DNA of 64,000 nt from Jiangella mangrovi (lineage in GTDB: Bacteria > Actinomycetota > Actinomycetes > Jiangellales > Jiangellaceae): NCBI RefSeq assembly GCF_014204975.1, contig NZ_JACHMM010000001.1, positions 1,922,001 to 1,986,000 of the forward strand, given 5' to 3'. Positions within the stretch are counted from its first letter, which is position 1, and the number at the start of each line of letters is the position of its first letter. The position numbers and the translations under genes were made by a program. The notes under the pieces were generated by a model. The model was not told the origin of the DNA and ran no database searches. It was given only the letters and a program-made list of their open reading frames with translations. This document shows, piece after piece, positions 2,163 through 59,711 of this stretch.

Positions 2163-3644
2163 GTGGCAGACGAGGCCGGTATCGACTTCCCGACCGCCTG
2201 GGCCAAGGCGCTGACCGATCTCGAGTCCATCGAGATCGGCCCGCAGCAGCGCGCCTTCCTCTCGCAGGCGCGTCCCGTCACTCTCGTCGAGGGAACCGCC
2301 GTCATCTCGGTGCCCAGCGACTTCGCCCGCGCCCAGGTCGAGCAGCGGCTGCGCTCGCACATCGTCGACGCGCTCTCCGCGGTGCTGGGCCACCCGGTCG
2401 GGCTCGCCGTCAGCGTCAGCCCGCCGGCCGACACCGGCCAGCTCGACCCCGTCCCGCCGCCACCCCCCATGAGCGGGGGCTACCTCGACGCGCCGCCGTC
2501 GGCGTCGGTCGACACCGAGGAGATCCCGCTGGTCTCGGCGGCCGCCGAGCCTCCCGCGTTCCTGCCGCAGCGCCCGTCGTCCGACACCGCACGTCGCAAC
2601 GACGTCGAGCCGCACCTGAACCCGCGGTACACGTTCGACACCTTCGTCATCGGCTCGAGCAACCGGTTCGCGCACGCCGCCACCGTCGCCGTCGCCGAGG
2701 CCCCGGGCAAGGCGTACAACCCGCTGCACGTCTACGGCGAGTCGGGCCTGGGCAAGACGCACCTGCTGCACGCCATCGGCCACTACACGCGGACGATGTA
2801 CCCCGGCACCCGGGTGCGCTACGTGAGCTCCGAAGAGTTCACCAACGACTTCATCAACTCCATCCGCGACGACAAGGCCTCGGCGTTCCAGCGCCGCTAC
2901 CGCGACGTCGACGTCCTGCTCATCGATGACATCCAGTTCCTCGAGGGCAAGATCCAGACGCAGGAGGAGTTCTTCCACACGTTCAACACCCTGCACAACG
3001 CCAACAAGCAGATCGTCATCACCTCCGACCGGCCGCCGAAGCAGCTCTCGGCGCTGGAGGACCGGCTGCGCAACCGGTTCGAGTGGGGCCTGACGTGCGA
3101 CGTGCAGCCGCCCGACCTCGAGACCCGCATCGCGATCCTGTCGAAGAAGGCCACCCAGGACCACCTCAACGTCCCGCCGGACGTGCTGGAGTACATCGCC
3201 AGCCGCATCGCGACGAACATCCGCGAGCTCGAGGGCGCGCTGATCCGGGTCACGGCGTTCGCCAGCCTCAACCGGCAGCCGGTCGACCTGTCGCTGGCCG
3301 AGATCGTGCTCCGCGATCTCGTGCCCACCGACTCCGGCCCCGAGATCACGGCGGCCACCATCATGGCGCAGACGTCGGCGTACTTCGGCCTGACCATCGA
3401 GGACCTGCAGGGCACCAGCCGCAGCCGGGTGCTCGTCACCGCGCGGCAGATCGCCATGTACCTGTGCCGCGAGCTCACCGAGCTGTCGCTGCCGAAGATC
3501 GGCCAGCACTTCGGCGGCCGCGACCACACCACCGTCATGCACGCGGAACGCAAGATCCGCCAGCTGATGGCCGAGCGGCGCAGTGTCTTCAATCAGGTCA
3601 CCGAACTGACCAACCGCATCAAGCAGCAGGCCCGGCAGTCGTGA
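2163..3644 (+). CDS. dnaA: Chromosomal replication initiator protein DnaA
   Basis: DnaA is the AAA+ ATPase that binds DnaA boxes at oriC and opens the duplex. The 493-residue product has an N-terminal oligomerisation domain, a Pro-rich linker (about residues 80-150), an AAA+ domain with Walker [10 protein letters not shown] (about 192-200) and Walker B LLIDDIQF (252-259), and a C-terminal DNA-binding domain with the signature [11 protein letters not shown] (451-461). I chose GTG 2163 because GGAGG lies about 12 bases upstream and the product then begins [13 protein letters not shown]. An open in-frame extension back to 1923 has no family similarity. Confidence 0.97.
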
Positions 3645-4071
3645 CGATCGCCGGCGCCGCACCGGCCGGGGAAGCACGAACACGCAGAGTGATCGACTTC
3701 TCACAGGCTGTGGACAAGTTTGTGGACATGAGTGCCACGGCCGTGGACCAGACGGGGGAAAGTGTCACCGACCGGTGGACAACCTCGGACGGTCCACGTC
3801 ACCCACTGCTCGCACCCACAGCCCTCGTGGACAACGGTAACGCCGCTCACCTGCGACGTTCATGGTTTTCCACACTTTCCACCAACGCTATGACCATGAC
3901 TGACCTACACATGGATCAATGGGCAGCGCACAAGCTTGGCGGGCCGCTCCCTGTGGATCGTGTGATTCACGGCCGTCGTTTGGCGCCTCTGGCCGCCACT
4001 GTCAGCGGTGCGTGGAAGGATGACGTCGAACCACAACGACCCGGGCTCGCGCCCGAGGGGAGGACGGACCG
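3645..4071. other. oriC: Chromosomal origin of replication (oriC), dnaA-dnaN gap
   Basis: This 427-base gap holds no gene and the densest DnaA-box cluster in the window. Boxes are TGTGGACAA (3709-3717, perfect), TGTGGACAT (3721-3729), CGTGGACCA (3742-3750), GGTGGACAA (3774-3782), CGTGGACAA (3826-3834), TTTTCCACA (3866-3874, opposite orientation), CTTTCCACC (3875-3883) and TGTGGATCG (3952-3960). The stretch 3858-3940 is the most AT-rich part and is the likeliest unwinding element. Location between dnaA and dnaN is standard for actinobacteria. The exact initiation point is not visible. Confidence 0.88.
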
Positions 4072-46499: not shown

Positions 46500-46660
46500 G
46501 ATAGGATCGCGAATGCCCGGGCTGCGGCCCGGGTGCGACGAGTGTCTGCGAAGTCCGGTTCGATTCCGGCGCTGTCCCGCAACTGTGAAGCCGCCCGCCA
46601 CCGCGGACGGACGAGTCAGGTCGCCAGCCTCGTGGCTCGGATTCGTCCTCGGTAGAAGGG
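46500..46660 (+). ncRNA. Cobalamin (B12) riboswitch
   Basis: The leader of the btuF operon contains the conserved B12-element core TTCCGGCGCTGTCCCGCAAC then TGTGAAG (46564-46590) and a downstream GAGTCAGGTCGCCAGCC (46613-46629), with a CCCGGG...CCCGGG stem on its 5' side. Cobalamin binding should repress the downstream genes. The element ends about 60 bases before the TTG start, whose GAAGGAGG could be sequestered. The exact ends are approximate. Confidence 0.88.
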
Positions 46661-55930: not shown

Positions 55931-56870
55931 GAGCGTGTCTGACAAAGTTCCGGGATCGTGTCGGGGATGCTCGGGGTCGTGTCTCGGTTTCAGTTGCTCT
56001 CTGATGCGCAGTGGGCGTTGATCGCTGATCTTCTTCCGGCTCGTACGGGTCGGCGGTGGCGCCCGTTCTCCGACGCGCGGGCGATGGTGGAGGCGATCGT
56101 GTACCGGTATCGGTGTGGGATCGCCTGGCGGGACCTGCCGGGCGTGTTTGGGCCGTGGCAGACGGTGTGGACATGGCATCGGCGCCTGGCCGGCGACGGC
56201 ACCTGGGACGCGGTGCTGGCCCGGTTGACCGCGGCAGCGGACCAGGCTGGGCAGCTGGGCTGGTCGGTGTCGGTGGATTCCACGATCGCTCGGGCTCATC
56301 AACACGCCACGAACATGAAACGCCTCGCGGGGGGCTGGGTCGAGTTACACGTTCTCGACCAGCGAGCCGCCTGACCACGGTCTGGGCCGCTCCCGCGGCG
56401 GGATGTCGACCAAGGTCCACCAGCTCGTCGACGGGCACGGACTGCCGTTGGTGATCGCGCTCAGCGCCGGCCAGGCCGGCGACTCGCCGGCATTGCTGCC
56501 GCTGCTGGGGCACCTGCAAGTGGCGCGCCCGGCCGGGCGGCCCAGGACCCGGCCCGACGCGCTGCGCGGGGACAAGGCGTACTCGTCTCGCGCGATCCGC
56601 GCCCACCTGCGCGCCCGCGGCATCAAGGCCGTGATCCCCGAACCCGCCGACCAGGCCGGGCACCGCAAACGACGCGGCTCACGCGGCGGACGCCCACCGG
56701 CGTTCGACCCGGACGACTACCGAGGCCGCAACGTCGTCGAACGCTCCTTCAACCAGCTCAAACAGTGGCGAGGACTGGCTACCCGGTTCGACAAGCTCGC
56801 CATCGTCTACCGCGCCGCCGTCGTCCTCAACGCCGTCATCTCCTGGACCCGACATTTATCAGACACGCTC
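55931..56870 (+). mobile_element. IS5-like insertion sequence (IS427-type), 940 bp
   Basis: The element has near-perfect terminal inverted repeats, GAGCGTGTCTGACAAA at 55931 and the inverse of GAGCGTGTCTGATAAA ending at 56870. It is flanked by TA on both sides (55929-55930 and 56871-56872), a 2-base target duplication as seen for IS427-group elements. Two reading frames encode one DDE transposase through a frameshift. The inserted copy looks complete. Confidence 0.88.
55958..56374 (+). CDS. IS5-like transposase, first frame (OrfA)
   Basis: The 138-residue frame covers the N-terminal DUF4096-type domain (LSDAQWALIADLLPARTGRR, RYRCGIAWRDLPGVFGPWQT, VWTWHRRLAGDGTWD) and the first DDE aspartate in SVDSTIARAHQHA. 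After a run of six G (56329-56334) the frame turns into unrelated sequence, while the plus-one frame continues with GSSYTF...GLGRSRGGMSTKVH. A programmed frameshift on the G run is likely. GTG 55958 is the first start; GTG 55979 is possible. Confidence 0.85.
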   Translation: MSGMLGVVSRFQLLSDAQWALIADLLPARTGRRWRPFSDARAMVEAIVYRYRCGIAWRDLPGVFGPWQTVWTWHRRLAGDGTWDAVLARLTAAADQAGQLGWSVSVDSTIARAHQHATNMKRLAGGWVELHVLDQRAA

Positions 56871-56873
56871 TAG
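56403..56873 (+). CDS. IS5-like transposase, second frame (OrfB)
   Basis: The 156-residue frame carries the rest of the DDE domain: MSTKVHQLVDGHGLPLVIAL, the second aspartate in ALRGDKAYSSRAIRAHL and the glutamate in NVVERSFNQLKQWRGLATRF. Upstream of the ATG the same frame is open back to the G run, so the functional product is probably the OrfA-OrfB fusion. Its TAG stop (56871-56873) is formed by the duplicated target TA and the flanking G, outside the element. Confidence 0.85.
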   Translation: MSTKVHQLVDGHGLPLVIALSAGQAGDSPALLPLLGHLQVARPAGRPRTRPDALRGDKAYSSRAIRAHLRARGIKAVIPEPADQAGHRKRRGSRGGRPPAFDPDDYRGRNVVERSFNQLKQWRGLATRFDKLAIVYRAAVVLNAVISWTRHLSDTL

Positions 56874-58325: not shown

Positions 58326-59255
58326 ATGACCGGAAATGCCGGCGGACCGGCCGAGCCGCCCGCCAGTGGCGGCTCGGCCGCACCGCCGACCTGTTACCGC
58401 CATCCCGACCGCGAGACCTACATCCGCTGCTCGCGGTGCGAGAAGCCGATCTGCCCCGACTGCATGATCGCCGCTCCGGTCGGCTACCAGTGCCCGCAGT
58501 GCGTGGCCGAGGGCCGCAGGGGCACCCGTCAGGCCCGGACGGCGCTGGGCGCGACGCGGCGCGAGGGCAACGGCAACATCGTCACGCTCACGCTCATCGG
58601 CATCAACGTCGTCATCTGGGTGATGGGCCTGGTCATCGGCGCACGTGGCGACTCGATCCTCGCCGACTACGCCCGCGCCAGCGGCACCAACGAGCTGGCC
58701 GCCCGGCTGGGCCTCGTCCTCGGCGACCCCTCCGACTCGTTCCGGTTCGGCATCGTCGACGGCGAGTGGTACCGCGTGCTCACGGCGACGTTCACTCACG
58801 TCAACGTCTTCCACATCGCGCTGAACATGCTGGCGCTGTACATGCTCGGCTCGTCGCTCGAGCCCGTGCTGGGCCGGTCCCGGTTCATCACCCTGTACCT
58901 GCTGTCGGGCCTCGGTGGCTCGGCGGCGTCGCTGCTCATGGTCTCCGACCCGTACGCCATCTCCATCGGCGCGTCGGGTGCGGTGTACGGCCTGTTCGGC
59001 GCGCTCTTCGTGGTCGCCCGCAAGCTCGGCGGCGACACCCGCAGCATCCTCGTGGTGCTGGCCCTCAACCTGGTGCTCAGCTTCACCATCTCGGGCATCG
59101 ACTGGCGGGCCCACCTGGGCGGCCTGGCCATCGGCTCGGCGCTCGCGGCGGTCTACGCCTACGCGCCCAAGGAGCAACGCGGGCTCTGGGCGGTCATCGG
59201 CTCCACCAGCGCCGCCGCGGTCGTGGCGCTCGGCCTCGTGCTCGCCCTCGTCTGA
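58326..59255 (+). CDS. Rhomboid family intramembrane serine protease with N-terminal zinc finger
   Basis: The 309-residue product has a B-box-like zinc finger (CYRHPDRETYIRCSRCEKPI, CPDCMIAAPVGYQCPQC), then a six-helix rhomboid domain with HVNVFHIALNMLALYMLGSS, the catalytic Ser in SIGASGAVYGLFGALF and the catalytic His in WRAHLGGLAIG. It would cleave membrane proteins within the bilayer. It lies 21 bases after ppiA and is followed by a strong terminator. Confidence 0.92.
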   Translation: MTGNAGGPAEPPASGGSAAPPTCYRHPDRETYIRCSRCEKPICPDCMIAAPVGYQCPQCVAEGRRGTRQARTALGATRREGNGNIVTLTLIGINVVIWVMGLVIGARGDSILADYARASGTNELAARLGLVLGDPSDSFRFGIVDGEWYRVLTATFTHVNVFHIALNMLALYMLGSSLEPVLGRSRFITLYLLSGLGGSAASLLMVSDPYAISIGASGAVYGLFGALFVVARKLGGDTRSILVVLALNLVLSFTISGIDWRAHLGGLAIGSALAAVYAYAPKEQRGLWAVIGSTSAAAVVALGLVLALV

Positions 59256-59280
59256 GCCGGGGCCTCGTCCTCCGGACCGG

Positions 59281-59312
59281 CACCTGATCGTTCCCTCGGG
59301 AGCGATCAGGTG
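59281..59312 (+). terminator. Terminator after the rhomboid gene
   Basis: CACCTGATCG (59281-59290) pairs with CGATCAGGTG (59303-59312), extended inward by TCCC/GGGA. It is a strong hairpin about 25 bases after the stop. It lacks a long T tract. Confidence 0.6.
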
Positions 59313-59319
59313 CGCCCTG

Positions 59320-59422
59320 CTGTCCACATTCCGATACCGCGCGCGGAGTTATCCACAGGGGTTATCCCCACTGGGGAAAATTACACGCGTGTAATCACAG
59401 CTGTGCAATAACCTGTGGACGA
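59320..59422. other. DnaA-box-like cluster with two abutting palindromes
   Basis: The convergent gap between the rhomboid gene and crgA contains CTGTCCACA (59320-59328), TTATCCACA (59349-59357, the exact consensus), TTATCCCCA (59362-59370) and TGTGGACGA (59414-59422). Between them lie the perfect palindromes ATTACACGCGTGTAAT (59380-59395) and CACAGCTGTG (59396-59405). The segment is AT-rich for this genome. Both flanking genes end here, so this is not a promoter for either. A role in titrating or reactivating DnaA, or binding another protein, is inferred only. Confidence 0.55.
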
Positions 59423-59453
59423 CGGTGTCGCCGCAGGTCAGCGTATATTTCCG

Positions 59454-59711
59454 TCACTTCCAGCGGGTAGCGGTCATGAACCCGCCCGTGATCATGCCCA
59501 TGCCGATCAACAGGTTCCAGCCGCCGAGGTCGTCGACAATGGGGATCTCGTCGCCGACGAGGTAGTAGACGACGATCCACACCAGTCCGAGGACGAGCAG
59601 CGTGATCATGGTCGGGACGACCCAGCGACCGGAGACCGACGGGTCCTTGAGCTCGCTCCGCTCCGGCGGGGTGTAGTCGTCGTCCTTGCGACGGCTGCGA
59701 GACTTGGGCAC
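59454..59711 (-). CDS. crgA: Cell division protein CrgA
   Basis: CrgA is a small actinobacterial membrane protein that helps recruit the division machinery and coordinates septation. The 85-residue product has a basic, charged N-terminus (MPKSRSRRKDDDYTPPERSE), then two membrane helices (VVPTMITLLVLGLVWIVVYY and WNLLIGMGMITGGFMTATRW). Its length, topology and position next to DUF881-pabA-pknB match crgA. It is divergent from the DUF881 gene. Confidence 0.93.
   Translation of the reverse strand: MPKSRSRRKDDDYTPPERSELKDPSVSGRWVVPTMITLLVLGLVWIVVYYLVGDEIPIVDDLGGWNLLIGMGMITGGFMTATRWK

Follow-up and report, generated by a model that had tools for sequence, protein, structure and literature searches.

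A conserved cluster of DnaA boxes and palindromes beside crgA, a candidate site of DnaA control in actinobacteria

The DNA analysed here (the window) is a stretch of 64,000 nucleotides, bases 1,922,001–1,986,000 of a 7.16-Mb genome that forms a single contig. Close to its start lie dnaA and the dnaA–dnaN gap (together at approximately 2163–4071, the gap itself at approximately 3645–4071), and some 55 kb further on a rhomboid protease gene and the cell division gene crgA end towards each other across a convergent gap at 59256–59453 (Table 1). A first, sequence-only reading of the region had described this convergent arrangement, its distance of about 55 kb from oriC, four DnaA-box-like 9-mers, one of them perfect, and two perfect palindromes that touch each other. 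All of this is borne out. That reading had passed over a fifth box, TTTTCCCCA, which completes a head-to-head pair with TTATCCCCA; the earlier observation is thus right but understates what the gap contains. No T-run terminator or other terminator-like site was found in the gap, and no promoter was found there with an E. coli sigma-70 type model. Elsewhere in the window we observed a cobalamin riboswitch at 46502–46646 (Rfam RF00174, 34.7 bits) and, at 55958–56873, two adjacent open reading frames that by eye resemble a split IS transposase.

Table 1. Features in and around the rhomboid–crgA gap, in window coordinates
Feature	Position	Strand	Remarks
Rhomboid protease gene, convergent neighbour	58326–59255	+	Pfam PF01694; other genes at the same place in other genomes
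Inverted repeat, 16-nt arms, 94%	59280–59313		Repeat search; could serve the rhomboid gene as terminator stem; outside the element
Outlying DnaA-like box CTGTCCACA	59320–59328	+	Conserved only partly in the genus
Conserved element, DnaA boxes and palindromes	59348–59419		Invariant in 64 of its 72 columns across 12 genomes of the genus
DnaA box TTATCCACA, perfect	59349–59357	+	One of 10 in the genome
DnaA-like box TTATCCCCA	59362–59370	+	Left half of head-to-head pair
DnaA-like box TTTTCCCCA	59372–59380	-	Right half of head-to-head pair, 1-nt spacer
Palindrome ATTACACGCGTGTAAT	59380–59395		Core TTACA-N4-TGTAA; putative site of a dimeric partner protein
Second palindrome CACAGCTGTG	59396–59405		Abuts the first (59395/59396); CACAGGTGTG in some relatives, among family members
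DnaA box, TGTGGACGA on the top strand	59414–59422	-	TCGTCCACA on the - strand; TTGTCCACA in most genus members
crgA, cell division protein	59454–59711	-	Pfam PF06781, E 1.9e-28; anchor gene of the element

Five boxes within 103 bases is an unusual density. When 9-mers with at most one mismatch from TTRTCCMCA were counted in 250-base stretches of the 64-kb window, five or more were found only at the dnaA promoter, at oriC and in the rhomboid–crgA gap. The perfect box TTATCCACA has 10 copies in the whole 7.16-Mb genome, and the head-to-head pair, with at most one mismatch, has a single occurrence. Separately, two perfect copies of TTATCCACA at 438,259–438,482 of the same genome (L235:1560–1783) point in opposite directions, about 215 bp from each other, and are accompanied by two weaker boxes, possibly a further DnaA-box cluster far from oriC.

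Conservation of the gap is concentrated in the element. Among the same 12 genomes of the genus, none of the 84 columns upstream of it (59264–59347; none of 57 and none of 27 when taken as two parts) and eight of the 34 downstream (59420–59453) are invariant, and the perfect TTATCCACA precedes the head-to-head pair in all 12. The earlier reading depended on the 9-mers being kept; rather than decaying between conserved genes, the boxes and the palindrome form the conserved part of the gap. Ten other members of the family also keep boxes at crgA, in a diverged form in two of them (L043, L044). Within the class, genus g24 (L011, L016, L017, L022) has a different layout, in which the palindrome was not seen.

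Occurrence beside crgA

We sampled the class through 91 segments downstream of crgA, taken from the source genome and from 90 of 93 other genomes with crgA, and scored each by its best match to TTRTCCMCA facing TGKGGAYAA at a distance of 1–3 nt, with 0–3 mismatches accepted. This relaxed pair is present in 85 of the 91 genomes (all 22 of the family and 63 of 69 outside it) and is missing or unrecognizable in six (L004, L063, L064, L073, L075 and L084). Shuffled segments average about six mismatches to the pattern. Among 294 control segments from elsewhere in 60 of the same loci, coding and non-coding pooled, two had three mismatches or fewer; both were true elements (L046, L062), leaving 0 of 292. 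The facing boxes are separated by 1 nt in 66 of the 85 pairs, by 2 nt in 10 and by 3 nt in nine, a count that permitted only these spacers, and a separate run permitting 0–6 nt also picked mostly 1. A third box accompanies 73 of the 85 pairs at a distance of 2–4 nt, including 51 of the 63 non-family pairs; among 2400 random positions, 15 have such a box. In nine further genomes of the class, boxes lie within 350 bp of crgA in eight, with none in L229.

The strict form of the pair (at most one mismatch, 1-nt spacer) occurs in 42 of 99 whole genomes, at one place in each, and in all 42 that place is downstream of crgA, 30–256 bp beyond the CrgA match; the reversed pattern has no occurrence in the same genomes. 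In most of the class the link between the box cluster and crgA is genuine. What stands opposite crgA differs among the genomes checked (rhomboid, thiolase, GH15, hydrolase, beta-lactamase-family or PH-domain gene), and the element stays with crgA in each case. Because the neighbour differs in this way, we rejected a promoter of the neighbour as the common function. The setting near the origin also recurs: no more than 60 kb separate crgA from dnaA in 26 of 31 genomes, the exceptions being G046, G058 and G290 (85–131 kb), G127 (336 kb, with a weak CrgA match) and G094, whose value carries no correction for circularity.

A scan with the exact 20-mer gave at least 120 loci, 80 of them with titles; it overlaps the other genome set (L135, L144 and L166 match G092, G042 and G026) and is not independent of it. 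Among the 120 loci listed, crgA was detected in 47. The pair lies at most 300 bp downstream of crgA in 31 of these, among which the titled ones belong to Mycolicibacter, Nocardioides, Intrasporangium, Embleya, Yinghuangia and Streptomyces sp. PsTaAH-137; it lies at 336 bp in one, at 617–772 bp in nine (the four titled ones are Arthrobacter or Pseudarthrobacter) and further away than 772 bp in six. Nine of the 73 listed loci without crgA carry a rhomboid homologue, eight of them together with ppi (L103, L109, L127, L150, L164, L173, L198, L208) and L097 without it. Four loci titled Propionibacteriaceae or Propionicimonas (L106, L123, L125, L169) have both the pair and the palindrome, but in their stretches crgA was not detected. 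In one of these, from a Propionibacteriaceae MAG (L123:2455–2503), both stand between genes that by eye are thiamine-like and another locus, and no crgA was detected in 8 kb. Eight listed loci share their stretch with dnaA: L098, L147, L154 and L171, titled as other phyla; L180, L184 and L202, listed without a title; and L112 (Curtobacterium). Many other titled loci of the scan belong to other phyla. One titled Spirochaetaceae (L146) combines a crgA-like gene with the pair and is perhaps a binning error.

Across the phylum, the strict 1-nt pattern appears in three of 396 genomes (the source genome, G434 and G478), and only in the source genome is it at crgA. Outside the class, 122 genomes have a CrgA match, and 11 of these were read by eye, without a control. 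Seven (L213, L214, L216 and L220–L223) have facing or nearly facing boxes and an ACA-N4-TGT-like palindrome beside crgA at other spacings, two (L217, L219) have boxes near crgA in another layout, and in two (L215, L218) no boxes were seen near crgA. This suggests that other spacers explain the scarcity of the strict pattern in the phylum at large.

The palindrome at crgA and at nrdR

The first palindrome, in the form TNACA-N4-TGTNA, occurs 39 times, once in each of 39 of the 91 crgA segments (17 of the 22 from the family and 22 of the other 69), with no copy in the other 323 kb of the same loci and none in 21 oriC regions. The looser ACA-N4-TGT lies within about 45 nt of the pair in 60 of 85 cases (22 of 22 and 38 of 63, respectively); of 2400 random stretches of 110 nt, 44 contain it. 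The stricter WTTACACNNGTGTAAW is found in 15 of 60 genomes: the 12 genus members, in each of which it has one place, at crgA; G051, also at crgA; and G025 and G045, elsewhere.

In the source genome TTACAN4TGTAR has two places, the crgA gap and the nrdR promoter. Over 45 genomes, a set in which the family is over-represented, as it is in the nrdR counts, the pattern has 83 places, with 21 at crgA, 32 at nrdR and 30 elsewhere. Within the family it stands at crgA in 20 of 22 genomes and at nrdR in 22 of 22; outside the family the figures are 1 of 23 and 10 of 23. Among 30 loci sampled from 40 nrdR matches, 26 have the palindrome upstream of nrdR, at a distance of at most 250 bp, together with an adjoining DnaA-like box of up to two mismatches (21 of 21 in the family, five of nine outside). 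The nrdR promoter of the source genome (L233:1990–2080, approximately 4,674,490–4,674,580) carries TTACACCCGTGTAA beside three DnaA-like boxes, and many members of the family have additional boxes further along, TTGTCCCCA and TCGTCCACA. The nrdR promoter is the palindrome's one other clearly conserved place. The earlier judgement that promoter regulation is unlikely holds for the crgA gap but does not carry over to nrdR, where the same palindrome and DnaA-like boxes lie in a promoter. The box that touches the palindrome at nrdR may, we presume, belong to an NrdR box (CCACAGGTTGTGG) rather than to DnaA.

As an operator of a wide regulon the palindrome was tried and rejected: the 30 places elsewhere are about what chance gives, the reversed pattern having 58 strand matches. 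Eight of the 30 are TTACAACGTTGTAA, seven in the genus and one in G025, and form a third recurrent place, inspected at L302:1501 and L305:1501 and recognized by pattern only in five more genus members and in G025; presumably it is an unrelated operator, perhaps of LacI type.

NrdR boxes are 16 bp long, of the type ACAC-8-GTGT, and come in pairs about 31 bp apart. The palindrome resembles NrdR operators in that, in the nrdR promoter, TTACA-N4-TGTAA lies between boxes of apparent NrdR type; it differs in that ACAC and GTGT are 2 nt apart, not 8, with about 15 bp to the neighbouring box. The element at crgA, read by eye, is ACAC-2-GTGT, a spacing unlike that of the NrdR box, and NrdR is not indicated as its binder. 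For MtrA, also considered as a binder of the palindrome, no clear match was found to the motifs in the available part of PMC2945938.

A candidate site of DnaA control

A site outside oriC that is apparently directed at DnaA is well supported by the sequence. The earlier proposal of a DnaA titration or reactivation site stands to that extent; between titration and reactivation, sequence cannot distinguish. For its other proposal, a nucleoid-protein site near crgA, no such protein emerged. Our leading interpretation, held with slightly more belief than doubt, is that a single-copy chromosomal element on the 3' side of crgA, near oriC, binds DnaA together with a partner and controls DnaA and the timing of initiation. 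Two facing boxes 1–3 nt apart, usually with a third box 2–4 nt to one side, are the core of the arrangement, and two or three DnaA molecules should therefore assemble on it, their AAA+ domains turned towards each other. In many cases the TTACA-N4-TGTAA-like palindrome, the putative site of a dimeric partner protein, adjoins the nearest box; the DnaA-control site would probably act with this partner. The complex would most likely act on DnaA, by binding it or by changing its nucleotide state, and so on initiation timing; removal, inactivation and reactivation of DnaA are all possible modes. Through the similar module in the nrdR promoter, the supply of dNTPs would answer to the same signal; this module also suggests a partner engaged in replication or dNTP control.

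The likeness to known systems is partial. In E. coli DARS, head-to-head boxes are functionally essential, according to the accessible part of PMC10380432, and the crgA element shares with DARS1 and DARS2 a set of three boxes, two head-to-head and the third in tandem (73 of 85), in an intergenic position outside oriC. The spacing differs: in the E. coli DARS1 and DARS2 cores, as read from their sequences, facing boxes are 5 nt apart and tandem boxes 3 nt, which agrees with the double boxes in Table 1 of PMC11317965 (seen as an excerpt), whereas the facing boxes at crgA are 1–3 nt apart; the crgA element also has a palindrome where E. coli DARS have known IHF and Fis sites instead. With the topology of DARS but another spacing, the crgA element is therefore not classed as a DARS. 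The same excerpt of PMC11317965 reports that E. coli DnaA in vivo prefers box pairs 2–3 bp apart, printed in tandem in that table. Like E. coli datA, which requires IHF (PMC10380432, same part), the element is a DnaA-box locus outside oriC, and like the clusters that hold back initiation in Bacillus subtilis and Streptomyces coelicolor (PMC5742627, in the portion available) it is a DnaA-box cluster outside oriC in Gram-positive bacteria. Its five boxes and the nearness of crgA to dnaA make it an oriC-proximal DnaA-box cluster. By its position it is not a second oriC: the crgA gap is 55 kb away from dnaA–dnaN, where another box cluster stands. A 2006 Streptomyces paper on DnaA-box clusters is said to name its clusters after cosmids, one of which might be the crgA region; if so, the Streptomyces copy is already known. 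In the literature searched, which included few subscription papers, we did not find DnaA boxes at crgA described, and texts that name both mention them apart.

Several observations count against DnaA control: the TCCCCA inner pair, the six of 91 genomes and L229 without a pair, the layout of g24, the Propionibacteriaceae loci lacking crgA, the presence of the palindrome near the pair in only 38 of 63 cases outside the family, that of TTACAN4TGTAR at crgA in only one of 23 genomes there, and the possible overlap with an NrdR box at nrdR. We are more tentative, to the point of doubt, about a wider version of DnaA control, in which Actinomycetota would have one dedicated site downstream of crgA, with a dimeric partner, that does the job of E. 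coli RIDA, datA and DARS, and in which the DnaA–partner module at nrdR would couple initiation to dNTP synthesis.

Among the alternatives, regulation in cis comes first, although we think it unlikely. DnaA and a partner at the 3' end of crgA would control an antisense or read-through transcript and so couple division to initiation. The fidelity of the element to crgA, whatever gene faces it, and the promoter-proximal position of the similar module at nrdR are what one would expect of such a role. It fits poorly with an element that lies beyond the stop codon, here in a convergent gap where no E. coli sigma-70 type promoter was found, and that occurs in four Propionibacteriaceae loci with no crgA detected nearby.

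A passive sink, in which several boxes near oriC soak up DnaA and their geometry is irrelevant, strikes us as improbable. The rarity of perfect boxes (10 in the genome) and the oriC-proximal site agree with it, but a sink could do its work without a single strict site in each genome, without a constant head-to-head spacing and without a palindrome alongside.

The boxes themselves vary mainly at one position, which bears on what recognizes them. In the pairs outside the family there is hardly any change at positions 4, 5, 6, 8 and 9, whereas position 7 holds either A or C; in the family, both boxes mostly have C there (18 of 22). Of the 84 boxes in 21 oriC regions, 24 have C at position 7, a share near that at crgA (94 of 270), but the oriC boxes of the genus have A there in 12 of 12 (four oriC regions), unlike the TCCCCA-type inner pair at crgA. 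The preferred actinomycete DnaA box is TTGTCCACA, without C at position 7, in the part of PMC4285127 that was accessible. One could suppose that a protein other than DnaA recognizes these TTRTCCMCA-like inverted repeats, given how frequent TCCCCA boxes are here and that the assignment to DnaA is made from sequence; we regard this as highly improbable, as the core T4 C5 C6 C8 A9 coincides with DnaA-box positions, the oriC regions of relatives likewise have either A or C at position 7, and the perfect TTATCCACA precedes the pair in every genus member.

Position 7 is equal in the two facing boxes in 30 pairs and different in 33 of the 63 outside the family, and because of these differences we regard the pair as two separate 9-mer sites, not a conserved stem. 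An RNA element or terminator, with the inverted repeats folding at the end of the crgA or rhomboid transcripts, is scarcely credible: the region folds better than its shuffles (z -2.33 on the + strand, -3.38 on the - strand), but inverted protein sites alone give low folding energy, and these scores are outweighed by the mismatched halves and by the lack of any Rfam match up to E 1, besides palindromes that have no loop, no terminator-like site or U-tract stem, and no paired changes across relatives.

To our knowledge, the control of DnaA in actinobacteria is largely open. Kept beside crgA in most of the class, with a variant seen by eye in other classes, the element is a small, deletable target, and its palindrome offers a way to fish out a partner protein. 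Across many actinobacteria the element has the look of a switch or buffer, so far uncharacterised, that would act on replication initiation; the palindrome may link initiation, through DnaA, with division, through the crgA locus, and with dNTP supply, through nrdR.
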